Assembly (NCBI RefSeq): GCF_003057875.1
Contig: NZ_PYXZ01000001.1
Span: 310,001-374,000, forward strand
Length of the DNA: 64,000 nt
Reading direction: 5' to 3'
Origin: Nocardioides currus
GTDB lineage: Bacteria; Actinomycetota; Actinomycetes; Propionibacteriales; Nocardioidaceae
Shown: in pieces, positions 12,040-32,268 of the stretch
Layout of the letters: each line of letters begins with the position of its first letter
Position numbering within the stretch: position 1 is the first letter of the stretch
Made by a program: the position numbers and the translations under genes
Notes under the pieces: model-generated
Databases searched by the model: none
The model's input: only the letters and a program-made list of their open reading frames with translations
Told to the model about the DNA's origin: nothing

Positions 12040-12057
12040 GCGACGTCCTGTGGCAAC

Positions 12058-12762
12058 TCAGTAGTCCACAAGGACGTGATGCTGACGCAGAGTCTCCAAC
12101 TGGGTCGTGATGCCTCGCGCGATCGATGGGTCACGGGAGAGGAGCCCGCATTCTAGGTTCCGCTTTGCTGCAGCATCCGAGAAGTTCGCGCTGGTGACGA
12201 ACGAGGCTCCCTCGTCGACCACGACGAACTTCGCGTGCTGTCGTGGCGGATACTGGGAATCGTCGGTCAGCGCATACGTCCAAAGCCGTGCCCCGGGCAG
12301 CTGCTGAAGCAGCCGCTCGCGCGTCTCCTGCTGCATCTTCCGATCGACGACGACGGTCACACGAACTCCCCGCACGACGGCGTTGGCGAGAGCGGTGAGG
12401 TATACGGACCCCCAAGACGCCGAATACGTCGCAGCAAGCACCGTCGACTGGGCCTCGTTGATGAGCTCGGCAACGGCCAGCGTCGTCCGCCCCTCACCAC
12501 CAGGGACGCTGGGACACGTCCACACCGTCTCGAGTGGGTCCGGGCGAGGCACGGACGCGATGCCGTCGAGGACGGCTGCGGCCAGCTCCACTGCACCCTG
12601 GTCCGCGAGCAGACGACCGAGGAGTTCCTTCACCTGGCTTCGATGGTCGGAATAGGCACGCTTGGCAGCTAGGTGCGGCAGTCGTCGTTGCCGTAGTTCC
12701 GCGGCGATCCAGCCCGCTTCCTCTGCGCTCAGCAACGCGCCGAGCTCCCCCACAGCGGACAC
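12058..12762 (-). CDS. drmC: DISARM protein DrmC, phospholipase D-like
   Basis: This 234-residue protein has a PLD-family domain. The HxK motif and the downstream Asn/Ser are visible in RQHAKFVVVDEG followed by FVTSANFSDAAAKRNLECG (about residues 180-215), and the N-terminal half has an alpha/beta pattern with VLAATYSASWGSVYLTAL. Only one HKD-like motif is present, as in other DrmC proteins, so an active site would need a dimer. The start is GTG 12762, one base after the drmB stop. DrmC is reported to be dispensable for part of DISARM activity, and its substrate is unknown. Confidence 0.9.
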   Translation of the reverse strand: MSAVGELGALLSAEEAGWIAAELRQRRLPHLAAKRAYSDHRSQVKELLGRLLADQGAVELAAAVLDGIASVPRPDPLETVWTCPSVPGGEGRTTLAVAELINEAQSTVLAATYSASWGSVYLTALANAVVRGVRVTVVVDRKMQQETRERLLQQLPGARLWTYALTDDSQYPPRQHAKFVVVDEGASFVTSANFSDAAAKRNLECGLLSRDPSIARGITTQLETLRQHHVLVDY

Positions 12763-12763
12763 C

Positions 12764-17800: not shown

Positions 17801-18513
17801 AACACCGCCTCGCCGCTCTCTGCCTCGACTCGGAGCTTGGTCTGGAAAAGCCAGTCGCCTGGCGGCGCATCCATGCCGGTGACCCGGTCGTTGCTGAGCG
17901 CGAGTTCGACGATGACCCGGTCAGTCCGCGGGAAGAGTTCGACGCGGAGCGTGACGTCGTCGTCGAGTGTGATCGGAGCGAGGACGACGTGCTCATCGTG
18001 GCCGCGGACATCGAGCTGCGCCGTCTTCTCTACGGGAGTCCGCTTCGACCACTGGAACTTGCGGCCCTCCTCGTTCTCCTTACGGAATGAGGCGTACCGA
18101 CCCCAGCTCGCGGTGACGATGAGAACGTCGCAACCACGCGGCACTTGGAACCGCAGCCCCATCGACGACGGAAAGGTCAGCGCCCCCTTGGGCCCCTCGT
18201 CCCGCTCCTCATCGTCATCGGCAGTACTCGGTTCCTCGTCCGTGAGCACCGGAACACCGCGCTGCCCCTGAGTGGTCGGATCGATGTCAGTGATGCCTTG
18301 CCCGGTCTCGTTGGGGTCTGCACCGTCATCCGTCGCTTGCAGCGGACCCACTTGGTTCGGATCGATGGTCACCGGCGCCAGTCCACCGACCGCGTAGGCC
18401 GCTCGCGGCGTCCCCATGATCTCCTCGTCATTGCCGTTGCGCGGCCCGAGCAACTCCCGTTCAATCAAAGCGATTAGTTCGGAACGGACAATGGTCGACG
18501 GACTCACACTCAT
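14845..18513 (-). CDS. drmA: DISARM helicase DrmA
   Basis: The 1222-residue protein has an ATG at 18513 that shares one base with the drmMI stop. After a poorly conserved 450-residue N-terminal region come the helicase motifs: LLFFPTGGGKTEAYLGLAAF (Walker A, about 476), LIIQDELHLITGALGT (DExH as DELH, about 739), and VVLATSMLQVGVDVPRLGLM plus EYIQASSRVGRDARKPG (motifs V and VI). A Cys pair sits in RCPWCGTKI. The DELH and the QASSRVGR motif are characteristic of DrmA. It pairs with DrmB to load on unmodified DNA. I see no frameshift or missing motif. Confidence 0.95.
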   Translation of the reverse strand: MSVSPSTIVRSELIALIERELLGPRNGNDEEIMGTPRAAYAVGGLAPVTIDPNQVGPLQATDDGADPNETGQGITDIDPTTQGQRGVPVLTDEEPSTADDDEERDEGPKGALTFPSSMGLRFQVPRGCDVLIVTASWGRYASFRKENEEGRKFQWSKRTPVEKTAQLDVRGHDEHVVLAPITLDDDVTLRVELFPRTDRVIVELALSNDRVTGMDAPPGDWLFQTKLRVEAESGEAVFLPTRDVLVADYDEVDEERQRLDLQYRHRLEFAIGRTASVTWDEPVDEDGNGIRLARSVETTWLPTAEVPQTIAGSAGAAVPSMRKLAELEAEQAEAAFGPLVEGYLEWLHGQQAAADELPEHLRDIAVDAIAEAQLVADRLAEGVQLLSQGGEALTAFRFMNRAMRDQRIRSQVAAKRAADDDLSIDDALSAVEAEGDKTASWRPFQLAFILLQLPALTDPAHPYRSGHAANVELLFFPTGGGKTEAYLGLAAFTFAVRRLQGDLETDDGVLDGRDGVAVLMRYTLRLLTSQQFQRAAALVCAAELIRQEDPATWGEKPFSIGLWVGSAVSPKRYTEAEAQVQAVRSNDSVRAFGLTVLQLQRCPWCGTKIDPKRDVHTVKTRERIAVYCGDRHDDCPFAIDGDADGPLPITTVDDEIYRNPPTFLLATVDKFARLAREGEAASLFGYVAEWCPRHGYRHPDSHGSCPGQSHNPKSENGVSYPKVAIQPARRLRPPDLIIQDELHLITGALGTAVGVFENAVDLLSSYAQKGQNVRPLVIASTATVRNAENQVRALYGRGVDVFPPQVLDVRDTFFSSEKKVTDEDPGRKYLGICAHGIRLTLAEIRLSEVLLLAGQKLLDNHGDSADPYMTTVGYFSATRELAGMRRYLDDDVTMRVAGNTEPFPKRTNDFARLNIGELTSRISAEDISKTLDRLALPFTRERWSTHGKQAYAKAFREAVEARKPSPSSPERPYDVVLATSMLQVGVDVPRLGLMLVVGQPKNTAEYIQASSRVGRDARKPGLVVSLANWARPRDMAHFEQFRHYHETFYAQVEALSVTPYSETAMERGLMGVLVSAARVADLRSGGSLSPERGAGEILSKMPVVEDLIDQLVARATRAVDDAGEAKRMRDKLVQRMDRWHDKAANASGALVYERRPKKEVSWPLLISPEDTLPSVADRVFVVANSMREVQPEINLLVSPSANRLAFKEPLDSPEWHIPEVTT

Positions 18514-21500
18514 CAGAAGAGCTCTCCCTGCTCCGGCACGTTCTGGCCCTCGGCGCGGGCTCGGTCGTGGTTGAGCTCGAGCAGCCGATCGAGGATCTCA
18601 ACCCGCGCCGTCGGCGACACGGTCCACCGCTCCATCTGACGATATGTGTGGAACCCGTGGTCGAGCGCCACATCGTCCCAGCCGTACGCATCCATGGTGG
18701 CCTCATCCATTTCCGCGTGGATCTCTCGCATCCGATTCACGTCGGGCTCGCTCCGGACCGAAGGATCGTTGACCCGGTTGTAGAGACTCGTGAGACCGAT
18801 GTCGCAACGAATCATGGTCGCCTTACGGTCCTCGTGCAGTGCGATTCCGGCATCCGTCAGGCGGGCAGTAGCGACCGGCCGTGGATATGTTTCGAAGACG
18901 TCCGAGGGTGTGTAACGAACACGCGTCTCGAGAGTTGACCCATGCGTGATGGCCCAGAGCTGATGAGGGCTCGCTGACAAGATCGCGAGATCTGAGAAGG
19001 ACTGCGACGCGAAGACGCCGAGCGCATGGCTGAAGACCTGATTCTTCGCGACCAGCAAGGGCATGACTGGTTTGCTTACGAGAGCGATGACGATGACCTC
19101 GTCGAGCTCGGCTATGGCGCGACGCATTCCTCGCGCGAGCTCGGCGAACTGCCACCAGCGTTCCCGTCGCGCCGGCCGCTTATTGCTCTCCCGCTCGGGC
19201 TTCACCTTCTCAAGGGCGCGCCGGTAGGGGAGGCCAAATTCTTTGGCCTCATTCTCGCTACGGTCGTTGAAATCGATCACCCAGCGCGATGCTGACGCGT
19301 CCGGGCGCGAATTCAAGTCCTCCCCGTTGAGGTACGGGAACAGGACTTCAGAGTTCGCCGGCGACTCACGCATCCACGCCACCGCTTCGTTCGCTTCGAG
19401 GACGAAGCCCTTGCCGAGGACGATGCATCCCTGGAACGCGATACCCGCGTTCTCCCGCAGCCGACGCGGTGCGCCGTGAACCCGACCGGCCGGCTCGAGA
19501 AGCGTGGAAATCTGTCGAACTACGACATCGTCACATGTCCTGCTCACCGCGTTGCTTATCGGGCCGGCTGATCCCCAGACCGCCGAATACTCCAGTTTTG
19601 CACTTGATGCCGGCCACGGCCTTGAGCGGATGGCACGAATGATGGTCAAACCCTTCGCCGCTACCGAGTCGAGGCCTACAGCTCGTGTGTCCCCCTGCGC
19701 AAGGGTGTTTGTTGCGATGAGTCCAAGGGAAGCTTGGCCGTTCAACGAGGCTGCGGCTCGAAGCAGGAAATATGCGACCAGATCGGCACTGCCGCGCAGC
19801 CCGCCCGCCACGGCGTTGATGAGCCAGTCGCGCATGTTCGCGCCCAGCGCCCCAGTGAGCTTCTGGCCTCCGAGGAACGGCGGATTGCCAATTACTGCAT
19901 CGAATCCGGCACGCTCAACAAACACATCCGGCGCCTCAACTGCCCAGTGGATGGGCCTCCAGCGTTCGTAGTCTGTGTCCACCGCTGGCCTTAGCCCAAT
20001 GTCGATGCGTCGATCGATTTTGGCACGCTCGCCTTCGGATCGGTCGAGCGGGAATGCCTCTGAAAGCTCCAAACTCAAGACATTGTAGGCATCGTCGAGT
20101 TGAGCACCGGGGGTTGCGCCGAGCGGCAGTCCGGCGGCGACGATGCCGTCGGAGACGAGCCGTAGATCGGCCGTCGCCTGCCTCAATTGCTCAAGCAAAG
20201 CGTTCTTTCCGCGCGTCGAACGCATCGGGTCGCGCTCCTCAACCGGTGAGGCAAGTTGCCTGCGTAGACGCGTTGCCTCAGCGATCTTGCCGTCAACGTC
20301 AATCAGAAGCTGGGTATCCATCCGCTTCGGGTCGGGATAGAGGTGGAGATACCGAAGCTGGTCGAGGTCTGTCATGCCGAGCAGGGAGTTTCCACAGAAG
20401 ATCTTGTCGTCGACGAACGAGAACGGCTTGGTCTTGTCCATCGACACCAGCCATAGCGAGAGCTTGCACATCTCGACGGCCATCGGGTTGATGTCTGCGC
20501 CGTAAAGACAGCGAGCGATGACCTCGCGGATCGCTTGATCCTTCACTCGCTGCGGATCGGCAATCTGGTGCGGGTCGAGGCGCCCTTCGGCAGTCCAGGC
20601 CTCGGCGACGCGGTCGGCGAGGTAGCGGGCTGCCGCTACGAGAAACGCGCCGGATCCCGCCGCGATGTCGGCGACCTTGAGGTCGAGGATCGCGCTACTG
20701 GACTTCAGCCGCCATGCGTTCTCGTCGTTGGTCTGCAGCGGCCCGGGTTCGTAGACCAGCGGCTGAAGGGCGTGCAGCACGACCTCCTCAGCGAGTGAGC
20801 GAGGCGTGTAGTGAGCGCCTGCGTTCTTGCGTGACGGGGTCTCGACCACGACCAGTCCACCGACCGGGATGACAAGCGGGATGCCGCGGAGGTCTCGACG
20901 GATGAATCTGCTCCAGTCGACGAGGAAGCCGAGCAGTTCCTCGTCGCCTCCGGCGACCGGGGTGAGCAATCGTCGCGCGTCTGCTTCGTCGGCGGAATCG
21001 AGCTCGGCGTCGTAGAGCTTCGCGAGCTTCGCTGCGGTCAGCGGCGTCGCTGCGGGCTGATCGTTCTTGATCCACTCGCGGAGCGCGGTGGCGAAGCTCT
21101 TTCCGTCCGAGCTGTCGTCGTACAGGCGCTGGAGGGTGCCTTCGTCGATCTCCGGCTCCTCGCCGGGCTTGCCGACCAGGCCGATGATCACGTCGTCCTC
21201 GACCACCGCACAGGAGTAGCCGAGCAGTCCTTCGTAGATGTAGCCGATCTGCTCGACGTCGATGTCGCGGAAGGAGACGCGACGCTGTTCACTCTTCACG
21301 GTCACCGTTTGCACGGATTCGAGGACGTGCAGCATGACCCGGTCGGAGACCTCGAGGCGTAGCCGGCCGCGCTCGTCGGTGGCGTGCAGCCAGGGGAAGC
21401 GTTCGGGATCCAGCAGCGACCCGCCGTACGCCGGCATTCGCATCTCGTCGTAGTTGACACCGCCGTACAGCGCCTGGCTGACGGCCAGGAGTCGGTGCCA

Positions 21501-22544
21501 GGCATCGAAGGATTCGTCAAGCGGTTCCTCACCCTGAGCGGCTTGCCGCTTCAGGTCCGACAGGAGGTCGCGAATGGCGTACGAGTCCCAGTAGAGCTGC
21601 TCCGTCGGGAGCATCTCGCGCTCCTCGGCGAAGAGCAGAAACACGACCCGCATCATCACCGTCACGGCGGCCTGATAGATCTCATCCGGATCCTCTGCTA
21701 GAGGATCGGGATCGCCTTGCCGGCCCGCGGCGAGCCTGGCTTCGGAGAACGACTGGACGAGGAGCTCGACCGAGCGACGTACCTGCGTGCCGAGCGCTTC
21801 GGTGATCTCCTCGGCCTCGAGCTCGCTGCGTTCGAAGAGCCGCGGCAGTCGCTGATCGGGGTCCTTGGCGCGGTACCGCCGTTGGTCGAGCAGGGTCAGG
21901 AATGCGTCGCGCAGCAGTGGTTCTTCGGCCCAGGTGAGGGCGTTGACCATGCCGGAGCCGGTCGGCTTGCCGTCCTTGGCCCATACGATGGCCCACCATT
22001 GGCCGTCGGTGACGACGCCGACCTCTACATGGGACTTGCGCAGAAGCATCGCCATTCGGTCGATCTCGGTGGCGGCCCATCCATCCAGGCCTGTCTCGCG
22101 CAGGCTGGTGGTCGGCTCTACGACGAGGAACAATGCAGCGTAGTCGGCGTCGCGGCCCTTCAGGGCGCCGCTCGGGCGAACGGCCACCTGTTCGCCCGGC
22201 GAGCGGATCTCGAATGTCGCGGGAAGGTCGTCGGCAGTGTGGCGGAGTCCGTTCCAGCCGGCGAGGTCGTCGAGGACGGTGTCGACCCAGGCGTTCCTCA
22301 CCTCGGCGTACCGCTCCAGGGCATCTGGCGTCCGGTCCGCGAGTGCAAAGTCGTCCACCTCGCGCTGCCAGGTGACAAAGGCTTGCTTGAAGGTGACCAT
22401 TCTGTCGTCGGCGTCGCCGAGGCGGTCGACGCCGTCACGCCAGATGTCCTTGACGACTGGGAGCGCGAGGAACGGTCCTTCGGTCTCGACCTGAGCCAGC
22501 CAGTCCTCGTGCAGCTCTGCCACCGAGCGAGTACGGCGCGTCAT
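18513..22544 (-). CDS. drmMI: DISARM adenine-N6 methyltransferase DrmMI
   Basis: The 1343-residue protein is the class 1 DISARM methylase that marks host DNA. The N-terminal 600 residues resemble the large helical regions of Eco57I-like enzymes. Motif I is VADIAAGSGAFLVAAARYL (about 622-640) and motif IV is VIGNPPFLGG (about 884), the NPPF signature of adenine methylation. Residues from about 900 to 1230 are the probable target-recognition region. That stretch (roughly 18800-20100) is visibly richer in A/T than the rest of the operon. No PD-(D/E)xK motif was found. The start overlaps the drmD stop by ATGA, and the end overlaps drmA. Confidence 0.93.
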   Translation of the reverse strand: MTRRTRSVAELHEDWLAQVETEGPFLALPVVKDIWRDGVDRLGDADDRMVTFKQAFVTWQREVDDFALADRTPDALERYAEVRNAWVDTVLDDLAGWNGLRHTADDLPATFEIRSPGEQVAVRPSGALKGRDADYAALFLVVEPTTSLRETGLDGWAATEIDRMAMLLRKSHVEVGVVTDGQWWAIVWAKDGKPTGSGMVNALTWAEEPLLRDAFLTLLDQRRYRAKDPDQRLPRLFERSELEAEEITEALGTQVRRSVELLVQSFSEARLAAGRQGDPDPLAEDPDEIYQAAVTVMMRVVFLLFAEEREMLPTEQLYWDSYAIRDLLSDLKRQAAQGEEPLDESFDAWHRLLAVSQALYGGVNYDEMRMPAYGGSLLDPERFPWLHATDERGRLRLEVSDRVMLHVLESVQTVTVKSEQRRVSFRDIDVEQIGYIYEGLLGYSCAVVEDDVIIGLVGKPGEEPEIDEGTLQRLYDDSSDGKSFATALREWIKNDQPAATPLTAAKLAKLYDAELDSADEADARRLLTPVAGGDEELLGFLVDWSRFIRRDLRGIPLVIPVGGLVVVETPSRKNAGAHYTPRSLAEEVVLHALQPLVYEPGPLQTNDENAWRLKSSSAILDLKVADIAAGSGAFLVAAARYLADRVAEAWTAEGRLDPHQIADPQRVKDQAIREVIARCLYGADINPMAVEMCKLSLWLVSMDKTKPFSFVDDKIFCGNSLLGMTDLDQLRYLHLYPDPKRMDTQLLIDVDGKIAEATRLRRQLASPVEERDPMRSTRGKNALLEQLRQATADLRLVSDGIVAAGLPLGATPGAQLDDAYNVLSLELSEAFPLDRSEGERAKIDRRIDIGLRPAVDTDYERWRPIHWAVEAPDVFVERAGFDAVIGNPPFLGGQKLTGALGANMRDWLINAVAGGLRGSADLVAYFLLRAAASLNGQASLGLIATNTLAQGDTRAVGLDSVAAKGLTIIRAIRSRPWPASSAKLEYSAVWGSAGPISNAVSRTCDDVVVRQISTLLEPAGRVHGAPRRLRENAGIAFQGCIVLGKGFVLEANEAVAWMRESPANSEVLFPYLNGEDLNSRPDASASRWVIDFNDRSENEAKEFGLPYRRALEKVKPERESNKRPARRERWWQFAELARGMRRAIAELDEVIVIALVSKPVMPLLVAKNQVFSHALGVFASQSFSDLAILSASPHQLWAITHGSTLETRVRYTPSDVFETYPRPVATARLTDAGIALHEDRKATMIRCDIGLTSLYNRVNDPSVRSEPDVNRMREIHAEMDEATMDAYGWDDVALDHGFHTYRQMERWTVSPTARVEILDRLLELNHDRARAEGQNVPEQGELF

Positions 22545-25500
22545 CGGATGTTCATCCCCTTGTCCACGTCATCGGGTGACAGCGCGAAGATCACAGCGGC
22601 TGGGAACTCCCACGCGCGCACGTCTTCGTAGCGGCCGGCGACGGCCGCCAGCTCGCGGTTACGCTCATCGTCGAGTGCGTCGATTCGGCGGCGGATCTCC
22701 CGGAGATCGCGCTCGCACTGTCGGCGCTCGTCTTCGAAGAGGCCGAACTGCGGATCCGCGTCGATCTGCTCGGCTTCCCTCAGGGCGTCGCGCAGCGTGT
22801 CAGCGAAGCGGTCGAAGATGTCTCCCACGCGTGTCTCATCAGCCTCCCGGCGGCTTCGGAGAAGGTCCGCCACCTCTCGCCGGCGCCGTTCGGCTCGGTC
22901 ACGGATCGCGTCCTCGACGCGCTGACTGATGCCGTCCTCGGAGTTCCACGCCTCGGCGAGCTGCCGGGCGATCGACGTGGACACAGGGCGGATGCCGTCA
23001 GTGTCGAGGGCCTGTTCGAGCAGCTCTTCCGCGCGGTGCTCGCCGACTGCCTGGCGGCGCGCGAGGCGGGTGCCGGCGAGGAATACCTCTTCGTGGAGCC
23101 TCAGACCTGCGCGTCCGACGAGTACCAGCCGAGTGACCGCGACAGCGAAGGATTCGTCGAGATCCGGCACGACCATCGCGCTGACCCGCTGGAGCGAGCG
23201 CTCACCGCCCCAGAGTGCCGAGCGCAGGCGCCGAGTGGATCTCTGGAGGAGTTGGCTCCCCAGGTGCATGTAGGCCACATCCGGGTCGTCCACCAGAACC
23301 CGAGGGTCAAAGGCGATCGGCTTGAGATGGTCTGGGGCGAGCCGATTGGTGAGCTCTCGCGTGACCGGCTCCCAGCTCGTGTCGAGAGCAGGCAGCCTGA
23401 ACACGGGAACATCCGTGTCCTCCGAACCCTCCAGGGTCAGCGGTGGGAACTGGTTGAGCTCGAAGGCCGTCTCGACGACGCGCTGGAGGTTGGAGGGGCG
23501 GAGGTGCAGCTTGTCGCGACTCTCGGCAAGTCTTGCTTCGAGCTGAGTCAGCTCCGCGTTGAGCATTCGCTCGCCCTGCATCATCCCGGTGATCGGGTCC
23601 TTCTCAGCCTTCGGCTTGCTCGGTCTGACGTCGATACCACCGAGCTGGCGCTGGATGTCGGGCGCGATGATCTCGTTGGCCGAGCCGAGGTCGTGCATGA
23701 TCTGGGCGACCTTGGCTGCGACCCGGCCCAGCATCTCGGTGTCCTGGGCCAGGGCGCCTCCGGCGGTGACACGCGGGACGAAGTGGCGTACCTGCGGCGG
23801 CTGGTTCTGTCCGTAACGATCGATCCGCCCGATCCGTTGCTCGAGACGGTTCGGGTTGAACGGGATGTCGAAGTTGACGAGTCGGTGACAGTGGCGCTGG
23901 AGGTCGATGCCCTCTCCGGCCGCATCTGTGGCGAGGAGCACGCGGACGGAGGTCTTCGAAGGAGATTCGTTGAAGCGTGCCCGGACGAGCTCACGTGTCT
24001 CGGCGTCGGTGCTCCCGTCGATCACCTCGACGCGGGCGTTGTCGTAGCCCTGCTGCCGCAGGATGTTCCTGATCCACTCCAGCGTGTCGACGTACTCGGT
24101 GAAGACCACCATGCGCTCGTTGCCCCAATCGCCGGTCGGACGGAGCTGGCCCTCGAGATGACCGATCAGTGCCTCCAGTCGACTGTCGGGTCGCGCGTCG
24201 TACTGGTGACCCCACTCGCTGAGCCAGTCCAGGTCCGCCAGGTCCTCCTCGCTGAGCGCCGGCATCGAGCTCTTGGTCTGTTCGAGCGCCTGGAGCTCGG
24301 GCTGGTCGGCCTTGCCCTCCTCGAGGTCGTCGGCGGCGAACCCCAGGATCTCGTCGTACTCGGCATCGAAGTCGACGTTCAACCCGCGTGTTCGCGTGGC
24401 CTTGTACACATCGATCGTGCGCGCGAACGCCACCGGGGATGAGACGAACCGCTTCTTGAGGAGAAGCGTCGCCATGTCCTTCGCGTGCTTGCTTCCGCCG
24501 TGGCGAGCGACCGCTGCGTCACGACGCTTCGTGAAAGCAAGCAGTCGCTCGTAGGCCTCGGACTCGTCGTCGCTCGGGTCGTAGGGCAGTGGCAGGACTT
24601 CTCGCTCCTGGAATCCCTTGGCCTCACGGAGATCACGCTTCAGGCGCCGTACCGCTACCTCACTCAGCGCTTGTGGATCGATCTTGCTGCTCCGCACGAA
24701 TCGCTGAGGGTCGATCATCTCGAGGAGCGCGGCAAATGACTCCGTGTATCCGTTGTGCGGCGTAGCTGAGAGGAACAACCGGTGCTCTGCTCGCTCGGCC
24801 AGCTCGCGCACTGCGCGTGTTCGCTGGGAGTCGACCGCGTAACCACGACGCTCGCGCCCGACATTGTCTGTGCGAGAGGGGCTGCTCGGTGCGACGTGGT
24901 GAGCCTCGTCCACGACCAGGATGTCGAAGGCAAAACGGTTGTCGTTGGCACCGAAGGCATCGCGGAGCTGTCGCTGGGCTCGCTGACCGGGTAACCACGC
25001 CATCGACACGATGATGCGCGGGAACAGGGTGAACGGATTGGCGTGGATGCCGTGCGTGCGACGCACTTGCTTCATGGTCTCGGAGTTGACTACTTCGAAG
25101 TGGAGGCCGAACTTCTGGTCCATCTCGTCTTGCCACTTCAGCTGGAGGCCCGCCGGACAGACGATGATCGCGGTGCGCGCACGATGACGCAGGAACAACT
25201 CCTGGATCACCAGGCCGGCCTCAATCGTCTTTCCGAGGCCGACGTCATCGGCCAACAGGAGGTTGGCACGGGGGTTGGCCAGGGCGCGCTTGAGGGGCTC
25301 TAGCTGGTAGGCCTCGACGTTGGCGCCCGAGTGGAACGGAGCCTGCACCGTCTGATCGTCGGCGCTGGTAATCGCTCCCCACCTGAGCGCGTCCACGAAA
25401 GCCGCGAGCTTGTTGGGATCGTCGAATCGCTCGGGATCGATTTTTTCGGGGAGGCCCCGGTGGGCGCTTGCGCTGCGTCCCGGCTCGAGCTCCCACACCA

Positions 25501-25714
25501 CTCTGAGCTCGTGTCCTAGGCGATCGTCCTCGACCGATTGCAGGCTCACAGCATGCTGAAGCTGCTGGACGGCATCGTCCGCACTGCTGCGCGTCAGACC
25601 CTGCTGCGTCACGTCCGTCACGGCCCAGTTAGCGCCACGGACTGTCACGATCTGCCCGATCTCCGGAACTGCTGCGACCGTCCCCCGACGGGCTTCCTCT
25701 TCGACCCCTGTCAC
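22541..25714 (-). CDS. drmD: DISARM SNF2-like helicase DrmD
   Basis: The 1057-residue protein begins at GTG 25714, the only start found in the open frame. SNF2/RapA-type motifs are LLLADDVGLGKTIEAGLV (about 153), VVDEAHHVAP (about 267), FLSATPHNGY, VFTEYVDTLEWI, TDAAGEGIDLQ and NPNRLEQRIGRIDRYGQ. The C-terminal 200 residues are charged and helical and probably form a coiled coil (many Arg/Glu, ending near AAVIFALSPDDVDKGMNIR). DrmD marks class 1 DISARM. It is the first gene of the minus-strand operon drmD-drmMI-drmA-drmB-drmC-C5MTase-vsr. Its promoter must lie in 25715-25914, which it shares with the divergent reverse transcriptase gene. Confidence 0.94.
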   Translation of the reverse strand: MTGVEEEARRGTVAAVPEIGQIVTVRGANWAVTDVTQQGLTRSSADDAVQQLQHAVSLQSVEDDRLGHELRVVWELEPGRSASAHRGLPEKIDPERFDDPNKLAAFVDALRWGAITSADDQTVQAPFHSGANVEAYQLEPLKRALANPRANLLLADDVGLGKTIEAGLVIQELFLRHRARTAIIVCPAGLQLKWQDEMDQKFGLHFEVVNSETMKQVRRTHGIHANPFTLFPRIIVSMAWLPGQRAQRQLRDAFGANDNRFAFDILVVDEAHHVAPSSPSRTDNVGRERRGYAVDSQRTRAVRELAERAEHRLFLSATPHNGYTESFAALLEMIDPQRFVRSSKIDPQALSEVAVRRLKRDLREAKGFQEREVLPLPYDPSDDESEAYERLLAFTKRRDAAVARHGGSKHAKDMATLLLKKRFVSSPVAFARTIDVYKATRTRGLNVDFDAEYDEILGFAADDLEEGKADQPELQALEQTKSSMPALSEEDLADLDWLSEWGHQYDARPDSRLEALIGHLEGQLRPTGDWGNERMVVFTEYVDTLEWIRNILRQQGYDNARVEVIDGSTDAETRELVRARFNESPSKTSVRVLLATDAAGEGIDLQRHCHRLVNFDIPFNPNRLEQRIGRIDRYGQNQPPQVRHFVPRVTAGGALAQDTEMLGRVAAKVAQIMHDLGSANEIIAPDIQRQLGGIDVRPSKPKAEKDPITGMMQGERMLNAELTQLEARLAESRDKLHLRPSNLQRVVETAFELNQFPPLTLEGSEDTDVPVFRLPALDTSWEPVTRELTNRLAPDHLKPIAFDPRVLVDDPDVAYMHLGSQLLQRSTRRLRSALWGGERSLQRVSAMVVPDLDESFAVAVTRLVLVGRAGLRLHEEVFLAGTRLARRQAVGEHRAEELLEQALDTDGIRPVSTSIARQLAEAWNSEDGISQRVEDAIRDRAERRRREVADLLRSRREADETRVGDIFDRFADTLRDALREAEQIDADPQFGLFEDERRQCERDLREIRRRIDALDDERNRELAAVAGRYEDVRAWEFPAAVIFALSPDDVDKGMNIR

Positions 25715-25782
25715 GGGATGACCCTATCCAGAGGGAACGACAGCGTCAGGGAGTTCCGGACAGACGGGAGTGTTCGGCGATG

Positions 25783-25895
25783 GTCCGCCGCCATGGTCGG
25801 ACTATTCTTTCGTTCAGAGACGGCGGGACTCCAGAAACTCATGCCTCTGCATGAGCCGGTCTCCGCCACCGCGGATGCCTCCGACTGATCGGAGG
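25783..25895 (+). ncRNA. Candidate structured RNA upstream of reverse transcriptase
   Basis: Three stem-loops lie in 113 bases just before the RT gene. The first is GTCCG (25783-25787) with CGGAC (25798-25802). The second is a two-part hairpin, CTCATGC (25838-25844) with GCATGAG (25849-25855) over a four-base loop, enclosed by GAGACGG (25817-25823) with CC plus GTCTC (25856-25863, one bulge). The third is CCTCCGA (25878-25884) with TCGGAGG (25889-25895). Retrons encode their msr-msd RNA at this position. I could not find a convincing a1/a2 repeat pair, and the third hairpin also contains a Shine-Dalgarno-like GGAGG, so it could instead be a translational control element. Confidence 0.4.
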
Positions 25896-25914
25896 TAGGA
25901 AAGATCGGGAGTGC

Positions 25915-27930
25915 GTGGTCGCGACTGCGTCCAAGAACGAAGGTGGGGACCGCCGTCTCCTCGGACCCACCCCATGGCTCACACGCGTACTGGGTCAACA
26001 CGATGTCGCCTACGTGCGCGACGTGCTGGCCCGTCGACGATCGCCCTATCGACAGTTCGCGATCCCCAAGCGCGCCGGAGGCATGAGAGTCATCCATGCA
26101 CCGGAGCCCGAACTGCAGATCCTGCTGCGTCGGGTCTTGAGAACGGCGCTCGATCAGCTGCCTCAGCATCCGATGGCCTTCGCTTATCGAAACCGGACTT
26201 CGATCGTCGAGTGTGCTCACGTCCATCTGAGGGCAGACACCGTGATCCGTCTCGACATCGCGGACTTCTTCACCTCGGTCCGCGAGCGCTACGTCTTCGA
26301 GGCCCTCATGGCGCTGACTGACGATGAATGGCTGCCGCTAGGCAGACCCTCTCGACTGGCGGCACATGAGATGGCTCGTCTTACGACGGTGACTCCCGAT
26401 GACTCGGGCGCATGGCTGAACCGTGGCACCGGGACGCTGACCGTGGACGATCGAGCACGGCCCAGGTCGTACCCCTACAAGGGACAGCGCGAAGGGTTTT
26501 TGCCGCAAGGGGCGCCCACGAGTGGCGCGATATCAAATCTCGTCATGCGTCCTGTGGACGAGGCGATCTTCCAGGTCGCTGAGAAGCTCGGCCTGCGGTA
26601 CACCCGCTACTCCGACGATCTCTACTTCTCCTCACGTCGCCGCGTTCTGCACCACACCGTGGACGCCCTGGTGAGCGGAGTTCGGCCGCCTCTCGCTGAG
26701 CTCGGACTCCACCTCAATGCACACAAGACTCGCGTGGCACGTGGCGGTGCGCGCCGGACGGTGCTGGGCATGCTGGTCGACGGGCACACGCTCCGTCTGC
26801 CACGAGAGCAGCATCGCAACATCGAATTGCATCTCCGGGGAGCGGACCGCCATGGGCTCGAGCACCACGCCGAGAGTCGAGGCTTCGATTCGGTCGAGAG
26901 TCTCGAAAGGCATGTGAGCGGACTCATCGGATGGGCGCAGCATGTCGAGCCGATGAAGGGTGCGACGTACCGCAGCCACTGGCACCGTACGAGATCGAGG
27001 AGTTCAGCCGCGGCTAACCCGCAGGTCGAACATGCGGATCCGACCGTTAGTGTCGATGACTCGGCGCGAGCCTCGATCGACCGCCTCCTCGCGCAGGGTC
27101 ATGCCTTCCGGCAGTCGAAGGACTACGCCGAATTCATCGGCTTCATCGGGCGGTTTCGCGGCTACTCCCCGTTCAACGCAGCGATGGTCAGGCTCCAGAA
27201 GCCCGGGTCACGCTTCGTCGCTACTGAGCAGAAGTGGCGTACGAAGTATCGACGAGTGATCCGCCCAGGGGGCCAGCCGCTCGTGATGCTGCGCCCGGGA
27301 GGGCCGTACATGGTCGTCTACGACGTGAGTGACACCGAAGCCCTGCCCGGAAGCAAGCCGCTGCCCCGGCACGTGACTGACCCGCTGGCCGCCGACTCGA
27401 GTCTGAACTCTGCGACCGTGGAGCGGCTCTGGAAGGTGACCATCGACAACGCGATCCGCCACGGGATCCGCGTGACGCTGGTCGACAACTCTCCCGCCCA
27501 CGCCGGCTCCGCGCGATGGAGTCGACTCGAAGGGCACGTCACACGGCCTGGGAAGAAGTCAGGGGCTACACCCGAGACGTATTCGCTGACGCACGAGATC
27601 GAAGTCAGTCGCAAGCTATCCGCCGTCGATCAGTATGTGACGCTCGTGCACGAACTCGCGCATATCTACTGCGGGCACCTGGGGACCCCAGACGTCGCCC
27701 TGTGGCCGTCGCGGCGAGGAGGCGTGGTCCGGGACGAGGTCGAAGCCGAATCCGTTGCATTCATCGTCATGTGCCGGCTCGACCCCCAGTTCACGATGGG
27801 CGACTACTTGCTGGGCTATTTGTCCAACTCCACCGAGATACCGGACGGCGTGAGTCTGCAGCGGATGATGCAGGTGGCCAGCGACATCATGCAGATGGGG
27901 CAGAGGCGCCTGAAAGCGGGCGAAATCTGA
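25915..27930 (+). CDS. Retron-like reverse transcriptase fused to ImmA/IrrE-type zinc peptidase
   Basis: This single 671-residue ORF has two parts. Residues about 40-360 are a reverse transcriptase: RLDIADFF (motif 3 aspartates at 114 and 117), QGAPTSGAISN (198-208) and RYSDDLYFS with the catalytic YxDD (232-235). Retron hallmarks are present in weak form: CAHVH at 100-104 where retrons have NAxxH, and VLG at 283-285 where they have VTG. Residues about 385-660 are a separate module: an ArdC-like N-terminal helix region (FIGFIGRFRGYSPFNAAMV), then VHELAHIYCGHLG with the zinc HExxH (579-583) and a downstream Glu-rich helix (VRDEVEAESVAF) for the third ligand. The GTG at 25915 is chosen because the frame opens there. 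RT-primed DNA could control the peptidase, but that is inference. Confidence 0.88.
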   Translation: MVATASKNEGGDRRLLGPTPWLTRVLGQHDVAYVRDVLARRRSPYRQFAIPKRAGGMRVIHAPEPELQILLRRVLRTALDQLPQHPMAFAYRNRTSIVECAHVHLRADTVIRLDIADFFTSVRERYVFEALMALTDDEWLPLGRPSRLAAHEMARLTTVTPDDSGAWLNRGTGTLTVDDRARPRSYPYKGQREGFLPQGAPTSGAISNLVMRPVDEAIFQVAEKLGLRYTRYSDDLYFSSRRRVLHHTVDALVSGVRPPLAELGLHLNAHKTRVARGGARRTVLGMLVDGHTLRLPREQHRNIELHLRGADRHGLEHHAESRGFDSVESLERHVSGLIGWAQHVEPMKGATYRSHWHRTRSRSSAAANPQVEHADPTVSVDDSARASIDRLLAQGHAFRQSKDYAEFIGFIGRFRGYSPFNAAMVRLQKPGSRFVATEQKWRTKYRRVIRPGGQPLVMLRPGGPYMVVYDVSDTEALPGSKPLPRHVTDPLAADSSLNSATVERLWKVTIDNAIRHGIRVTLVDNSPAHAGSARWSRLEGHVTRPGKKSGATPETYSLTHEIEVSRKLSAVDQYVTLVHELAHIYCGHLGTPDVALWPSRRGGVVRDEVEAESVAFIVMCRLDPQFTMGDYLLGYLSNSTEIPDGVSLQRMMQVASDIMQMGQRRLKAGEI

Positions 27931-28009
27931 TCTGGGCACCTAACAGCTGCGGAATCGCCGCGCGAGTCGGGGCCGCCGATGGCAGATCCAAGAAGCACTG
28001 TGCACGCAC

Positions 28010-28042
28010 CGAAGGCCCGCCCCCAGACGGGACGGGCCTTCG
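28010..28042 (-). terminator. Hairpin terminator after nrdJ
   Basis: CGAAGGCCCG (28010-28019) and CGGGCCTTCG (28033-28042) form a perfect 10-bp stem over a 13-base loop, 16 bases beyond the nrdJ stop. There is no clear U-run, as is usual in high-GC actinobacteria. It can also stop transcripts arriving from the RT gene on the other strand. Confidence 0.75.
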
Positions 28043-28057
28043 AATGCGTTCAGGTCA

Positions 28058-30943
28058 TCAGCTGCAGCCGCTGGTGGACCCGCAGCCCTCGCACACGTAG
28101 CACGAGCCAGCGGGCCGCATCTTCGTGCCGCAGGTCATGCAGAGCGGGGAGTCGACCGCCGTACCGGTGATCTTCTCCAGCAGCTCGGCGGAGGTGTGGA
28201 CGCCGGCCGGAGCGGCCTTGGCCTCCACGACCTCTCCCTCGACCTCGATGGTTTCGAGGCTCGCTTCGCTCCGCACCCCAACCACCGAGGGCGCGTCGAG
28301 CAGCTCAGCGGCGGAACCCGTCTCCTCGACGATCGGCTCGTAGGAGCCGGTCTCGAGGTGGCGCTGGCGCTCCTCGGCGGAGTAGATGCCGAGGGCGGAG
28401 CGGTCGTCGAAGGACAGGTAGTCCAGCGCCAGGCGGCGGAAGATGTAGTCCATGATCGACTGCGACATCCGCACGTCGGGGTCGTCGGTGAGGCCGGCGG
28501 GCTCGAAGCGCAGGTTGGTGAACTTCGAGACGTAGGTCTCCAGCGGGACGCCGTACTGCAGGCCGATCGAGACGGCGATCGAGAACGCGTCCATGACACC
28601 GGCCAGGGTCGAGCCCTGCTTGCCGAGCTTGAGGAAGACCTCGCCGAGCTCGCCGTCGTCGTGCGCACCCGAGGTCATGTAGCCCTCGGCGCCACCGACC
28701 GTGAAGGAGGTGGTGCGCGAGACGCGCGACTTCGGGAGGCGCTTGCGGGTCGGGGCGTAGACGACCTTCTCGATCACCTTCGTCTCGGCGGCCGAGTCGG
28801 AGGCGGCCTTGTCAGCCGCGTCCTTCTTGGCCTTGCCGCCACCGTCGGACAGCGGCTGGCCGACCTTGCAGTTGTCGCGGTAGATCGCCGTGGCCTTGAG
28901 GCCCAGCTTCCACGACTGCATGTAGACGTCCTCGATCTCCTCGACCGTGGCGTTCTCCGGCAGGTTGACCGTCTTGGAGATCGCGCCGGACAGGAACGGC
29001 TGGCAGGCCGCCATCATCCGCACGTGGCCCATCGGCTTGAGCGAGCGGGCGCCCATCGCGGTGTCGAAGACCTCGTAGTGCTCCAGCTTGAGGCCCGGCG
29101 CGTCGATGACGTGACCGTGCTCGGCGATGAAGGCGACGATCGCCTCGACCTGCTCGGGCTGGTAGCCCATCTTCTCCAGCGCCCGCGGGATCGTCTGGTT
29201 GACGATTTGCATCGAGCCGCCACCGACGAGCTTCTTGAACTTCACCAGCGAGAAGTCGGGCTCGATGCCGGTGGTGTCGCAGTCCATCATGAAGCCGATC
29301 GTGCCGGTCGGCGCGAGCACCGAGGCCTGCGCGTTGCGGAAGCCGTTCTTCTCACCGGTCGCGATGACGTCGGCCCAGGCCTGCGTCGCGAGCTTGAGCA
29401 CGCGGCTGTCCTCGGTGTGCAGCACGCGCACCACGTCGTTGGCGGCCTGGTGCTTGCGCATGACCCGCTTGTGGGCGTTGGCGTTGCGCTGGTAGCCGGC
29501 GTAGGGACCGACGATCCCGGCGAGCTCGGCCGAGCGCTTGTACGACGTCCCGGTCATCAGCGAGGTCAGCGCGGCCGCCATCGAGCGGCCACCCTCGGAG
29601 TCGTAACCGAGGCCCATGGCCATCAGCAGTGCGCCGAGGTTGGCGTAGCCGATACCGAGCTGGCGGTAGTCGCGGGTGGTCTGGCCGATCGGCTCGGTCG
29701 GGAAGTCGGCGAAGCAGATCGAGATGTCCATCGCGGTGATGATGAACTCGACCGCCTTCGCGAACAGCGCGGCGTCGAAGGTGTCGTCGTCCTTGAGGAA
29801 CTTCAGCAGGTTGAGCGACGCCAGGTTGCAGGACGAGTTGTCGAGCGACATGTACTCCGAGCACGGGTTGGAGGCCGTGATGCGCCCCGTCTCCGGGTTG
29901 GTGTGCCAGTCGTTGATCGTGTCGTCGTACTGCAGGCCCGGGTCGGCGCACTCCCACGCGGCCTGGCTGATCTTCTTGAACAGGTCGCGGGCGTCGACCG
30001 TCTCGATGACCTCGCCGGTGCTGCGCGAGCGCAGGCCGAAATCGGTGCCGTCCTCGACGGCGCGCATGAACTCGTCGGTGACGCGCACGGAGTTGTTGGC
30101 GTTCTGGTACTGCACGGAGGTGATGTCGGCGCCGCCGAGGTCCATGTCGAAGCCGGCGTCGCGCAGGGCGCGGATCTTGTCCTCCTCGCGCGCCTTGGTC
30201 ATCACGAACTCCTCGATGTCCGGGTGGTCGACGTCGAGGACGACCATCTTCGCGGCGCGACGCGTGGCGCCGCCCGACTTGATGGTTCCGGCCGACGCGT
30301 CGGCGCCGCGCATGAAGGAGACGGGGCCACTCGCCGTACCGCCGCTCGAGAGCAGCTCCTTGGACGAGCGGATGCGGGAGAGGTTGAGGCCGGCACCGGA
30401 GCCGCCCTTGAAGATGAAGCCCTCTTCCTTGTACCAGTTGAGGATCGAGTCCATCGAGTCGTCGACCGAGAGGATGAAGCAGGCCGAGACCTGCTGCGGC
30501 GACGGCGTGCCGACGTTGAACCAGACGGGGCTGTTGAACGAGAAGTACTGGTTGACCAGCAGCCAGGTGAGCTCGTGCTCGAAGATCTCGGCGTCGCCGG
30601 CGGTCTTGAAGTAGCCGTGCTCGAGGCCGGCCTTGGTGTAGGTCTTCACGACCCGGTCGATGAGCTGCTTGAGGCTCCACTCGCGCACGTCGGTGCCGAC
30701 CGCGCCACGGAAGTACTTCGTGGTGACGATGGTCGAGGCGTTGACGGACCAGAAGTCGGGGTACTCCACGCCGCGCTGCTCGAAGACGGTCTCGCCGGTC
30801 TTCCAGTTGGTCTGGACGACGTCGCGACGCTCCCACGTGATCTCGTCGTAGGGGTGCGTGCCCTCGGTGCTGAAGACGCGCTCCAGCGTCAGGCCGGCAC
30901 CCTTGGTCGAACCAGCGGCCCCGGTGCTCACCGTCTCGGTCAT
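28058..30943 (-). CDS. nrdJ: Adenosylcobalamin-dependent ribonucleotide reductase (class II)
   Basis: The enzyme reduces ribonucleotides to deoxyribonucleotides using a B12-derived radical. The start is ATG 30943 (MTETVSTG), preceded by AGGAG six bases upstream. A longer frame to 31012 has no such site. The 961 residues include the reductase barrel with SGAGLNLSRIRSS, NPCSEYMSLDNSSCNLASLN (active-site cysteine region), LAPTGTIGFMMDCDTTGIEPD, and a C-terminal zinc/redox tail, CMTCGTKMRPAGSCYVCEGCG. nrdR lies 86 bases upstream in the same direction, and the pair is the standard actinobacterial operon. Confidence 0.97.
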   Translation of the reverse strand: MTETVSTGAAGSTKGAGLTLERVFSTEGTHPYDEITWERRDVVQTNWKTGETVFEQRGVEYPDFWSVNASTIVTTKYFRGAVGTDVREWSLKQLIDRVVKTYTKAGLEHGYFKTAGDAEIFEHELTWLLVNQYFSFNSPVWFNVGTPSPQQVSACFILSVDDSMDSILNWYKEEGFIFKGGSGAGLNLSRIRSSKELLSSGGTASGPVSFMRGADASAGTIKSGGATRRAAKMVVLDVDHPDIEEFVMTKAREEDKIRALRDAGFDMDLGGADITSVQYQNANNSVRVTDEFMRAVEDGTDFGLRSRSTGEVIETVDARDLFKKISQAAWECADPGLQYDDTINDWHTNPETGRITASNPCSEYMSLDNSSCNLASLNLLKFLKDDDTFDAALFAKAVEFIITAMDISICFADFPTEPIGQTTRDYRQLGIGYANLGALLMAMGLGYDSEGGRSMAAALTSLMTGTSYKRSAELAGIVGPYAGYQRNANAHKRVMRKHQAANDVVRVLHTEDSRVLKLATQAWADVIATGEKNGFRNAQASVLAPTGTIGFMMDCDTTGIEPDFSLVKFKKLVGGGSMQIVNQTIPRALEKMGYQPEQVEAIVAFIAEHGHVIDAPGLKLEHYEVFDTAMGARSLKPMGHVRMMAACQPFLSGAISKTVNLPENATVEEIEDVYMQSWKLGLKATAIYRDNCKVGQPLSDGGGKAKKDAADKAASDSAAETKVIEKVVYAPTRKRLPKSRVSRTTSFTVGGAEGYMTSGAHDDGELGEVFLKLGKQGSTLAGVMDAFSIAVSIGLQYGVPLETYVSKFTNLRFEPAGLTDDPDVRMSQSIMDYIFRRLALDYLSFDDRSALGIYSAEERQRHLETGSYEPIVEETGSAAELLDAPSVVGVRSEASLETIEVEGEVVEAKAAPAGVHTSAELLEKITGTAVDSPLCMTCGTKMRPAGSCYVCEGCGSTSGCS

Positions 30944-31029
30944 TGAATCTCCTGTTGCAACTGGTCGTGGATCTGGCGGGTTGGTGTGCCCGGCACGCGG
31001 CTTCCCCACCACGTGCCGGGCAGTCTGGG

Positions 31030-31518
31030 TCAGCCAGTGGTGGCTGAAAGGTCTCCGCTGGTCTGCGCCAGGCGGCGCTCGGTGCGGAGCATCTCGATCT
31101 CGCTCTCGAAGTCCTCGGCGGACTCGAAGGCGCGGTAGACGCTGGCGAAGCGGAGGTAGGCGACCTCGTCGAGCTCGCGCAGCGGGCTCAGGATCGCGAG
31201 GCCGACCTCGTTGGCGTTGATCTCGGCCTGGCCGGAGAGGCGCAGCGCGTCCTCGACGGCCTGGCCCAGGCAGGCCAGCTGGTCCTCGGTGACCGGGCGG
31301 CCCTTGCAGGCCTTGCGGACGCCGGCGACGGCCTTGTCACGGTTGAACTGCTCGCTGGCACCGCTGCGCTTGAGCACCATCAGCTGCATCTGCTCGACGG
31401 TGGTGAACCGCTTCTCGCAGCTCGCACAGGTACGGCGCCGGCGGATCGACGACCCGTCGTCGGCCACCCGCGAGTCGAGCACCCGGGTGTCGGTCTTGCG
31501 GCAGTAGGGACAGTGCAT
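31030..31518 (-). CDS. nrdR: Transcriptional repressor NrdR
   Basis: The 162-residue protein represses ribonucleotide reductase genes when dATP/ATP is bound. It has the N-terminal zinc ribbon ([17 protein letters not shown], then [15 protein letters not shown]) and the ATP-cone ([26 protein letters not shown]). Full length for the family is about 150-180. A strong Shine-Dalgarno (AAGGAGG) precedes the ATG. Two NrdR-box-like sites lie upstream at 31662-31707, so autoregulation is likely. Confidence 0.97.
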
Positions 31519-31570
31519 CGCGCGACCTCCTTCGGGCAGTCTTTGAGCGAGCGCAGTTGGGCGCTACGAA

Positions 31571-31590
31571 GACACCCTCACGTGGGTGTC
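31571..31590. promoter_or_regulatory. Palindrome in nrdR leader
   Basis: GACACCC and GGGTGTC flank a six-base centre, TCACGT, 53 bases before the nrdR start. The site does not match the A/T-rich NrdR box. It may be an RNA hairpin in the 5' leader or another operator. No B12-box sequence is seen here. Confidence 0.4.
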
Positions 31591-31661
31591 AACGCATGTG
31601 GACCAGCACTTGTTTCCTGTGGAGAACTCGGCTGGTGTTGTGCAATCCACGTCCAGGGCTG

Positions 31662-31707
31662 TGAACTAGATGTGGATAACTACAACGGTGTAACTACTAG
31701 ATGTAGT
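31662..31707 (-). promoter_or_regulatory. Tandem NrdR boxes upstream of nrdR-nrdJ
   Basis: Two similar sites, at 31662-31676 and 31693-31707, both contain CTAGATGT. The second is an inverted repeat, ACTAC-TAGAT-GTAGT. Corresponding bases are exactly 31 bp apart, about three helical turns, which is the spacing typical of paired NrdR boxes. On the minus strand they read like the actinobacterial consensus around ACATCTAGT. They lie 144-190 bp upstream of nrdR, so the promoter is expected close to them. Confidence 0.72.
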
Positions 31708-31902
31708 GGTAACCGTACGTCTCGCCACTACGGATGGCAAGTGGCCCGTTCGGGCTACTTTTCGACCACCCGGGGTGCTCGGACAAAACCGCAGGTCAGT
31801 GGCCCGGAGCACATCCGGAACGGCCATTTCGTGCGGCGTGTCGGGGGTTCGAGGTGCCCCGTTCCGGTCCCGCCGTTCGTCCCCATCAGCCACAATGAAC
31901 CC

Positions 31903-32268
31903 GTGGCTACAGGCAAGCGGGCGGGTGCTCGAAAGGGTGCGAAGCAGAAGGCGTCGTTCAACCGACCCGCCCTGCTCTTCGCCCTGGCGATCACCGGGTG
32001 CCTCGTCGCGTGGGGCTACCTCGTCTACCTCGCGATCGACTTCGGTACGACGGCCCGCGCCGGCGAGCAGGGCGCCTGGGCGTTCCTGGTGCTGTCGTCT
32101 TTGGGAGCCGTGGCGTGCCTCTTCGCCGGCCTGCTCTTCGTGTCCCGGCTGCTGCGGGCGCTCGGGATCACGAGCGATCCGGAGGAGTCGTCGCCCGCCG
32201 CTCCCTCGTCGCCGGCCGCCTCGCCTGCCGCACCCCGTTCGCCCGGGGGGCGGCGCGCAGCGCGGTAG
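31903..32268 (+). CDS. Small two-TM membrane protein, unknown function
   Basis: The 121-residue protein starts at GTG 31903 (VATGKRAGARKG). The frame is open further upstream but lacks actinobacterial codon use there. The basic N-terminus is followed by TM helices at about residues 24-46 (ALLFALAITGCLVAWGYLVYL) and 60-83 (AFLVLSSLGAVACLFAGLLFV), then a Pro/Ala/Ser-rich tail. It resembles small conserved membrane proteins found near nrdR/lexA in Nocardioides-like genomes, but I assign no role. Confidence 0.6.
   Translation: MATGKRAGARKGAKQKASFNRPALLFALAITGCLVAWGYLVYLAIDFGTTARAGEQGAWAFLVLSSLGAVACLFAGLLFVSRLLRALGITSDPEESSPAAPSSPAASPAAPRSPGGRRAAR

Follow-up and report, generated by a model that had tools for sequence, protein, structure and literature searches.

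A predicted single-gene, type III-A-derived retron joining a reverse transcriptase to an ArdC-like metallopeptidase in Nocardioides currus

Introduction

Retrons in which one gene carries both a reverse transcriptase (RT) and a C-terminal effector domain are known as types XI (RT-Protease_XI) and XII (RT-TIR), the type XI protease being of the serine type. In type III-A retrons the effector is the product of a separate gene, with PRTase-CE and winged helix-turn-helix (wHTH) domains. Retron-Sda1 combines a III-A1 RT and a noncoding RNA (ncRNA) with HipA/DUF3037 in place of the PRTase, and its RT and RT-DNA were not involved in defence against the phage tested, according to PMC12548924. Here we describe a gene of Nocardioides currus, located at 25915-27930 on the forward strand of a 64,000-nucleotide stretch of contig NZ_PYXZ01000001.1 (hereafter the window), that joins an RT of the type III-A clade to a predicted ArdC-like metallopeptidase. 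Like types XI and XII it is a single gene with an RT and a C-terminal effector-type domain, but the domain differs. With type III-A it shares the RT clade, a folded upstream RNA and the PADLOC model PDLC02944, which spans even the fused domain, whereas it has no PRTase gene and carries its effector-like domain fused to the C terminus of the RT. Like Retron-Sda1 it appears to be a III-A lineage that swapped the PRTase for another module, although Sda1 consists of two separate genes and the present module is a fused peptidase. Effector replacement in the III-A lineage is therefore precedented.

Results and Discussion

The fused gene

The open reading frame (ORF) is open for 671 codons with no internal stop, has a putative GTG start and encodes a protein of 671 aa with homologues at two other loci (L145 and L144/L149). 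Its N-terminal part (aa ~30-360; 26002-26994) matches Pfam RVT_1 over aa 50-285 (E=7.2e-15), and the solved structures that score best against it are retron RTs. The PADLOC RT_III-A model PDLC02944 (597 positions) covers aa 30-661 of the window protein (E=4.7e-137); taken alone, the RT part scores 350 bits against this model, with RT_XIII as the runner-up at 191. Both aspartates and the tyrosine of the YSDD motif (aa 232-235; 26608-26619) are invariant in all three fused proteins, and on these features the N-terminal part is predicted to be a retron-clade RT with a catalytic YxDD. The CAxxH variant (for NAxxH) is also found in the PRTase-linked III-A RTs L005 and L006, which have VLG and ILG, respectively, at the second variant site; these variants are therefore not marks of the fusion.

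Other identities were rejected. A group II intron RT or a defence-associated RT (DRT) is ruled out by the model scores; against the NCBIfam DRT families the protein stays below the cut-offs (Drt2 43.2 vs 390 bits, Drt3a 32 vs 200, Drt4 12.1 vs 450). A type XI RT-protease is likewise ruled out, the match to that model being limited to aa 32-366 (profile positions 21-322 of 506) and leaving the C-terminal domain unmatched. Chance read-through of two genes is ruled out by the recurrence of the two-domain ORF in two other genomes.

The C-terminal part alone also matches PDLC02944, at positions 367-592 (E=1.1e-30), and does so as the sole model at E <= 0.01. At least one protein behind the 2023 defence library must therefore have had the same architecture, with the domain unnamed there, and the fusion is not wholly unseen: PDLC02944 already includes the C-terminal domain, without a name. 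The original prediction, made by a model from the sequence alone, knew of no peptidase of this type joined to an RT. This stands for the literature, in that no paper on an RT-ArdC-like fusion is among the open-licence matches listed and the available parts of PMC13092281 and PMC7159879 do not describe one (a prior mention in the 2020 retron classification is possible), but not for the profile library. Its claim that one ORF joins a retron-like RT to an HExxH peptidase was borne out by the intact frame and its recurrence in two genomes.

The ArdC-like domain

The C-terminal half (aa ~381-669; 27055-27921) is predicted to comprise an N part of DNA-binding type followed by a gluzincin metallopeptidase. 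Sequence profiles recognize it poorly. Pfam Peptidase_M78 (ImmA/IrrE, PF06114) gives the window protein 16.7 bits, below the curated cut-off of 22, which the relative L002 clears at 22.4 bits; the SprT-like match in this half is weak and below its cut-off; and ArdcN has zero matches in the window protein, reaching 13.1 bits in the relative L004 (E=0.12; cut-off 22.6). A sequence search of the Protein Data Bank with the C-terminal profile returned nothing at E <= 0.1, and ArdC emerged from the fold search. An AlphaFold2 model of aa 371-671, built with 53 stand-alone relatives, has a mean predicted local distance difference test score of 90.6. With this predicted model, Foldseek found a single match under 0.001, ArdC of plasmid R388 (6sna_A, rank 1, E 3.5e-4), and VIA-align gave ArdC Z scores of 12.3 and 12.0 over 231-234 residues spanning both ArdC domains (6sna_A Z 12.3, 231 residues). 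Next came IrrE/PprI (Z 7.3, 7.0, and 6.3), with the alignment confined to the peptidase part (model residues 131-258). A short match to Rad4 (model residues 64-106, Z 4.0, root-mean-square deviation 1.6, 42 residues) is weak alone and fits the Rad4 signature marked in a figure legend of the ArdC paper (PMC7213743). The model thus points to a two-domain ArdC fold in the C-terminal half, and the ArdC/ImmA-IrrE type named in the original prediction is matched in that order, ArdC first and IrrE/PprI next.

The same paper describes ArdC as a non-specific single-stranded DNA (ssDNA)-binding domain plus a metalloprotease domain, with H201, H205, and E229 as metal ligands. In the window protein, the HELAH metal-binding motif (H579/E580/H583; 27649-27663) and the glutamate-helix residues E608/E610/E612 (27736-27750), in the region of the third metal ligand, are kept in all three fused proteins and in all 54 rows of alignment A7; the HExxH conservation in A7 is partly by construction, one of the two fetching patterns having been HE[LC][AG]H..., whereas the glutamates were in neither. 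By sequence, the gluzincin ligands (HExxH and a downstream glutamate) appear to be in place, and a loss of catalytic residues in homologues, named at the outset as a result that would speak against the idea, was not seen. Compared with R388 ArdC (6sna, 6i89), both domains align and HExxH plus glutamate are shared, but identity is only 11-12% and ArdC is a plasmid antirestriction protein without an RT. IrrE/PprI of Deinococcus (3dti, 8sln, 8slm) has a similar peptidase core but matches more weakly, and PprI too comes without an RT.

Relatives of the C-terminal domain are widespread, occurring in many phyla as stand-alone proteins mostly of ~300 aa. A genome scan gave 118 relatives in 262 stretches, from which 80 loci were kept, and viral contigs added six loci. 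No RT was found beside the stand-alone peptidases when an RT profile was run over every ORF of at least 60 aa in loci L039-L124. At one locus (L054:9009-9867) a second stand-alone copy, split across two overlapping ORFs, lies near an intact one.

Lineage and loss of the PRTase

A midpoint-rooted maximum likelihood tree of 35 RTs places the three fused RTs and the 13 linked to a PRTase in one 16-row clade (96/99), in which the fused RTs form their own clade (100/99) joined with five actinobacterial PRTase-linked RTs (97/93). By this tree the RT is placed in the III-A clade, that is, as a retron nested among PRTase-linked relatives, in keeping with the retron-like motifs noticed originally. In a quick tree built from 56 C-terminal domains, the fused forms again make a single clade (SH-aLRT 99), which groups with six stand-alone proteins of actinobacteria (97); another actinobacterial row sits elsewhere on a long branch. 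Because each tree unites the fused forms beside actinobacterial relatives, one capture event would account for them, and a single fusion event in Actinomycetota together with loss of the PRTase gene would explain both trees.

The closest RTs without a peptidase domain sit just downstream of a gene of ~400 aa encoding the PRTase, which is upstream of the RT in all 13 III-A relatives in the tree. At L125 and L126 its product matches Pfam PRTase-CE and wHTH-PRTase_assc and PADLOC PRTase_III-A; beside L130-L135 it was recognized by BLAST, and beside L146-L148, L150, and L151 by profile (E 3.1e-75 or better). The PRTase profile found none within ~8 kb on either side of the three fused genes (positive control L146, 9.6e-110), and a search of the window's own genome for PRTase-CE (PF24390) was negative at E <= 0.001, the four control matches all being below the family cut-off. 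We therefore regard the system as III-A-derived and not as a strict III-A system.

Some of the RTs compared here have settings of their own. The PRTase and RT pair at L151:3401-9701, on the Sinorhizobium plasmid pSymA, is followed by genes annotated as an ATP-binding protein and an S8 family peptidase, and that at L150:3271-5927 is carried by a conjugative plasmid of Shigella sonnei, with IS26 and mph(A) close by. L136 and L138, RTs typed XIII by PADLOC, have long C-terminal extensions ending in hydrophobic stretches.

Two further fusions came to light. Among 393 genomes of the same class, a protein search gave one further full-length match (G1367, 49% over aa 37-670), and 246 genomes of the genus of G1367 gave the second (G1735, 48%); both are from another genus of the same class as the window. 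The three fused proteins align end to end with 47% identity to the window protein, and the two further fusions keep the domain order, the catalytic residues and the predicted ncRNA, with the PRTase absent there too. Among 322 ORFs in flanks of ~8 kb on each side of the three loci, the fusion (with its overlapping antisense ORFs) is the sole common gene, the one other match being a 28% helicase-domain similarity that links an L149 ORF to brxHI of L145. With nothing else common to the three flanks, one gene plus its upstream RNA therefore seems a sufficient unit. No further fusion came from 391 genomes of the same order, or from 396 of the phylum searched with PDLC02944. In 299 genomes of the phylum of the L041 genome all 10 RT matches ended at or before profile position 391 of 597, without a fusion, and 240 genomes of the class of G1009 gave no match whatever, which shows little about fusions there. 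No plasmid or phage record covered 80% of the fused query, the viral contigs held no confirmed fusion (their six peptidase loci being without an RT), the 80 genome loci fetched with the C-terminal domain held none, and a scan of genome contigs with patterns from the window protein alone confirmed none.

The predicted ncRNA

A retron ncRNA (msr-msd) is predicted at 25814-25961 on the forward strand, upstream of the fusion gene and running into its 5' end, by a covariance model (R1) made from L145 and L149 only. At these two loci the element upstream of the fused gene is 189-194 nt long, with long complementary ends and internal hairpins; that of the window measures 148 nt. Over window positions 20000-32000 (12 kb, filters off) the best R1 match was on the coding strand at 25814-25961 (31.8 bits, E 7.1e-7), the runner-up scoring 15.6. 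Over 196 kb from 14 sources the site ranked third, behind the two training sequences (31.9 bits, E 1.1e-5), and the next scored 12.8. The segment 25812-25964 has a folding energy of -75 kcal/mol, compared with -59.3 +/- 4.2 in shuffled sequences (z -3.74, 0/200 as low).

The a1 arm of the terminal inverted repeat, GAGACGGCGG (25817-25826, +), is a 10-bp perfect complement of the a2 arm, CCGCCGTCTC (25950-25959, +), which lies within the 5' end of the ORF, 36-45 nt in from the GTG at 25915. After the a1 stem, the G at 25834 (+) is a candidate branching nucleotide from its like place and context in L145 and L149. Hairpin 1 (CTCATGC-ctct-GCATGAG; 25838-25855, +) has a counterpart helix across the three loci, in which all six pairs are kept and two are changed on both sides in an alignment fitted to the structure. 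Hairpin 2 (CCTCCGA-ctga-TCGGAGG; 25878-25895, +) is present in both the minimum free energy and the centroid structure. When the three elements are aligned, pairing holds in 99.4% of cells, and 18 of the 62 pairs are double-changed (0/500 shuffles; slid maximum three pairs); these figures come from only three sequences, two of them close, and from an alignment fitted to the structure being tested. Together these features are consistent with a predicted adjacent ncRNA having a1/a2 inverted repeats and hairpins.

The placement of the repeat varies among relatives. In L145 the arm is 11 bp (0/60 shuffles) and ends 28 nt before the ORF. In seven of the 13 III-A relatives the best a2 arm ends 11-21 nt inside the RT ORF as delimited here, being reached by 0-2 of 60 shuffles for L125, L126, L147, L132, and L133, by nine for L146 and by eight for L134; for L130, L131, L135, and L148, 32-59 of 60 shuffles equal the best repeat, which is chance level. 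Rfam gave one chance-level match in the window stretch (E 0.93, below the gathering score) and no retron family in 13 loci. No sigma-70-like promoter was seen between drmD and the RT gene, which means little in a GC-rich actinobacterium.

A proposed mechanism

We propose that the locus is a single-gene, III-A-derived retron that lost the separate PRTase and fused to its RT an ArdC-like metallopeptidase of ssDNA-binding type, which multicopy single-stranded DNA (msDNA) would restrain, a proposal that we consider to have about an even chance of being right. Read from the sequence, it draws on intact catalytic residues, a predicted ncRNA with covarying hairpins, the lack of a PRTase, occurrence in three genomes, and one clade per tree. 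The ncRNA would be transcribed together with the fusion gene, and the RT would copy its 3' part into msDNA and stay bound to it, where the ArdC-like module of the same chain may contact the ssDNA of the msDNA. In healthy cells the bound msDNA would keep the peptidase off; a phage that damages, modifies, or displaces the msDNA would free the peptidase, which would then cleave a host or phage protein and bring the infection to a halt, probably with the loss of the cell. That RT-made DNA would control the protease is plausible. We favor a restraining role for msDNA, because the complexes of retron RT and RT-DNA keep the effector sequestered until phage infection (PMC12548924), and because constantly made msDNA would keep an ssDNA-activated protease on. 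More tentatively, at somewhat less than even, we suggest that this is a self-contained ssDNA-gated protease, in which the RT makes in cis the ssDNA that occupies the fused ArdC-like module and the state of the msDNA sets peptidase activity, and that it arose once, replacing the III-A PRTase.

In many retrons the effector is a protein of its own, restrained by the RT-msDNA complex, whereas here the sensor (RT plus ncRNA) and an effector candidate whose fold relatives bind ssDNA share one chain. The link between the state of the msDNA and effector activity would thus be directly testable with one protein and one RNA. If true, this would be a retron with a metalloprotease effector, a direct link of msDNA to the ssDNA-sensing ArdC/PprI protease families and, next to HipA/DUF3037, a second way in which type III-A retrons have replaced their effector. 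It also suggests a new coupling between a DNA sensor and a protease in defence against phages, and a possible role for a widespread, little-described peptidase family often near defence genes.

Several points weigh against this proposal of a single-gene retron with a peptidase restrained by msDNA. The perfect a1/a2 repeat is weak alone, being reached by 2 of 60 shuffles in the window (10 bp) and by 49 of 60, chance level, in L149. R1 was made from two sequences of one genus and, in the 196-kb scan, does not detect the ncRNAs of the PRTase-type III-A relatives. Fused copies number just three in genome sets that sum to 1972 with overlaps, so the architecture is rare in this sample. PMC10904395 reports that PprI interacts with ssDNA, which enhances its cleavage of DdrO, an effect opposite in sign to restraint, and according to PMC7213743 antirestriction by R388 ArdC did not require protease activity. 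At this locus the msDNA, the protease activity, and the phage defence are all putative.

The same parts could work with the opposite sign, ssDNA turning the protease on as in PprI, with infection altering the amount or form of msDNA or supplying phage ssDNA. IrrE/PprI is the second-best fold (Z 7.3, 7.0), and its cleavage is enhanced by ssDNA (PMC10904395). Constant msDNA synthesis would be self-toxic under such a scheme unless the target appears only upon infection, however, and the top fold is ArdC and not PprI; we regard activation by ssDNA as unlikely.

ImmA/IrrE proteins act on repressors, and the protease could instead be regulatory, triggered by the retron and cleaving a repressor of the adjoining operon, DISARM or BREX. 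The fusion gene of the window is divergent from a DISARM locus (drmD, drmMI, drmA, drmB), drmD itself being at 22541-25714 on the reverse strand (NCBIfam DISARM_DrmD, 1217.7 bits, cut-off 610), and that of L145 is divergent from brxD-brxHI. The defence-island setting opposite drmD that was originally noticed is thereby confirmed, and the cleavage of DdrO by PprI is a precedent (PMC10904395). Against this, the ORF listing, which involved no helix-turn-helix search, revealed no separate ORF resembling a repressor in the interval between the divergent genes, and the neighboring system varies by locus, L149 having neither DISARM nor BREX by ORF listing without a family search. The original suggestion of a module cleaving phage-type repressors amounts to an analogy with ImmA/IrrE; the closest fold is that of ArdC, whose protease is dispensable for antirestriction according to PMC7213743. 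A repressor target seems improbable to us.

Distinctly improbable is an ArdC-like domain that acts by binding ssDNA or as an anti-nuclease, shielding msDNA or blocking restriction, with proteolysis incidental. The antirestriction by R388 ArdC without need of its protease (PMC7213743) fits such a role, as does the company of the stand-alone relatives: at 21 of 83 loci (those with an ORF that matched the domain at E <= 1e-6, of which L057 and L061 look near-duplicate) a gene of type I restriction-modification, BREX-like or Hma-like kind lies within 3.5 kb. This count is based on six gene clusters, whose representatives PADLOC identifies as a BrxHI-like helicase, type I restriction, methylation, and specificity subunits, HmaB, and HmaC. 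The invariance of the metal ligands in all three fused proteins suggests selection for catalysis, however. Decay to a non-functional III-A relic, its RT joined by chance to an island peptidase, would account for the missing PRTase effector, the rarity, and the shorter ncRNA (148 vs 189-194 nt), but a full ORF, catalytic residues, and a covarying ncRNA retained across 47% protein identity in three genomes make it highly improbable.

Genomic surroundings

Apart from the genes already named, the DISARM locus (10891-25714) holds an ORF with a phospholipase D domain (12058-12762) and a C5 cytosine methylase ORF (10891-12039), which look like drmC and drmMII. The presence of drmMI together with a C5 methylase would mix features of two DISARM classes. 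Beside the locus, the segment 3187-10460 carries a pair of large SNF2/DEAD helicase ORFs together with an HNH_2 ORF, which may form another defence module. On the other side, convergent with the fusion gene, lies a gene (28058-31012) that we take, from resemblance without a family search, to encode a vitamin B12-dependent ribonucleotide reductase.

At L149 the gene convergent with the fused RT (L149:9946-11382) resembles, by eye and without a family search, an Mrr-type restriction endonuclease. The stand-alone ArdC-like family (L039-L121) may itself be an unnamed accessory defence protein. In the window, the GC content is 0.63-0.67 at 18001-28000 and 0.66-0.73 in the rest, consistent with an acquired island.

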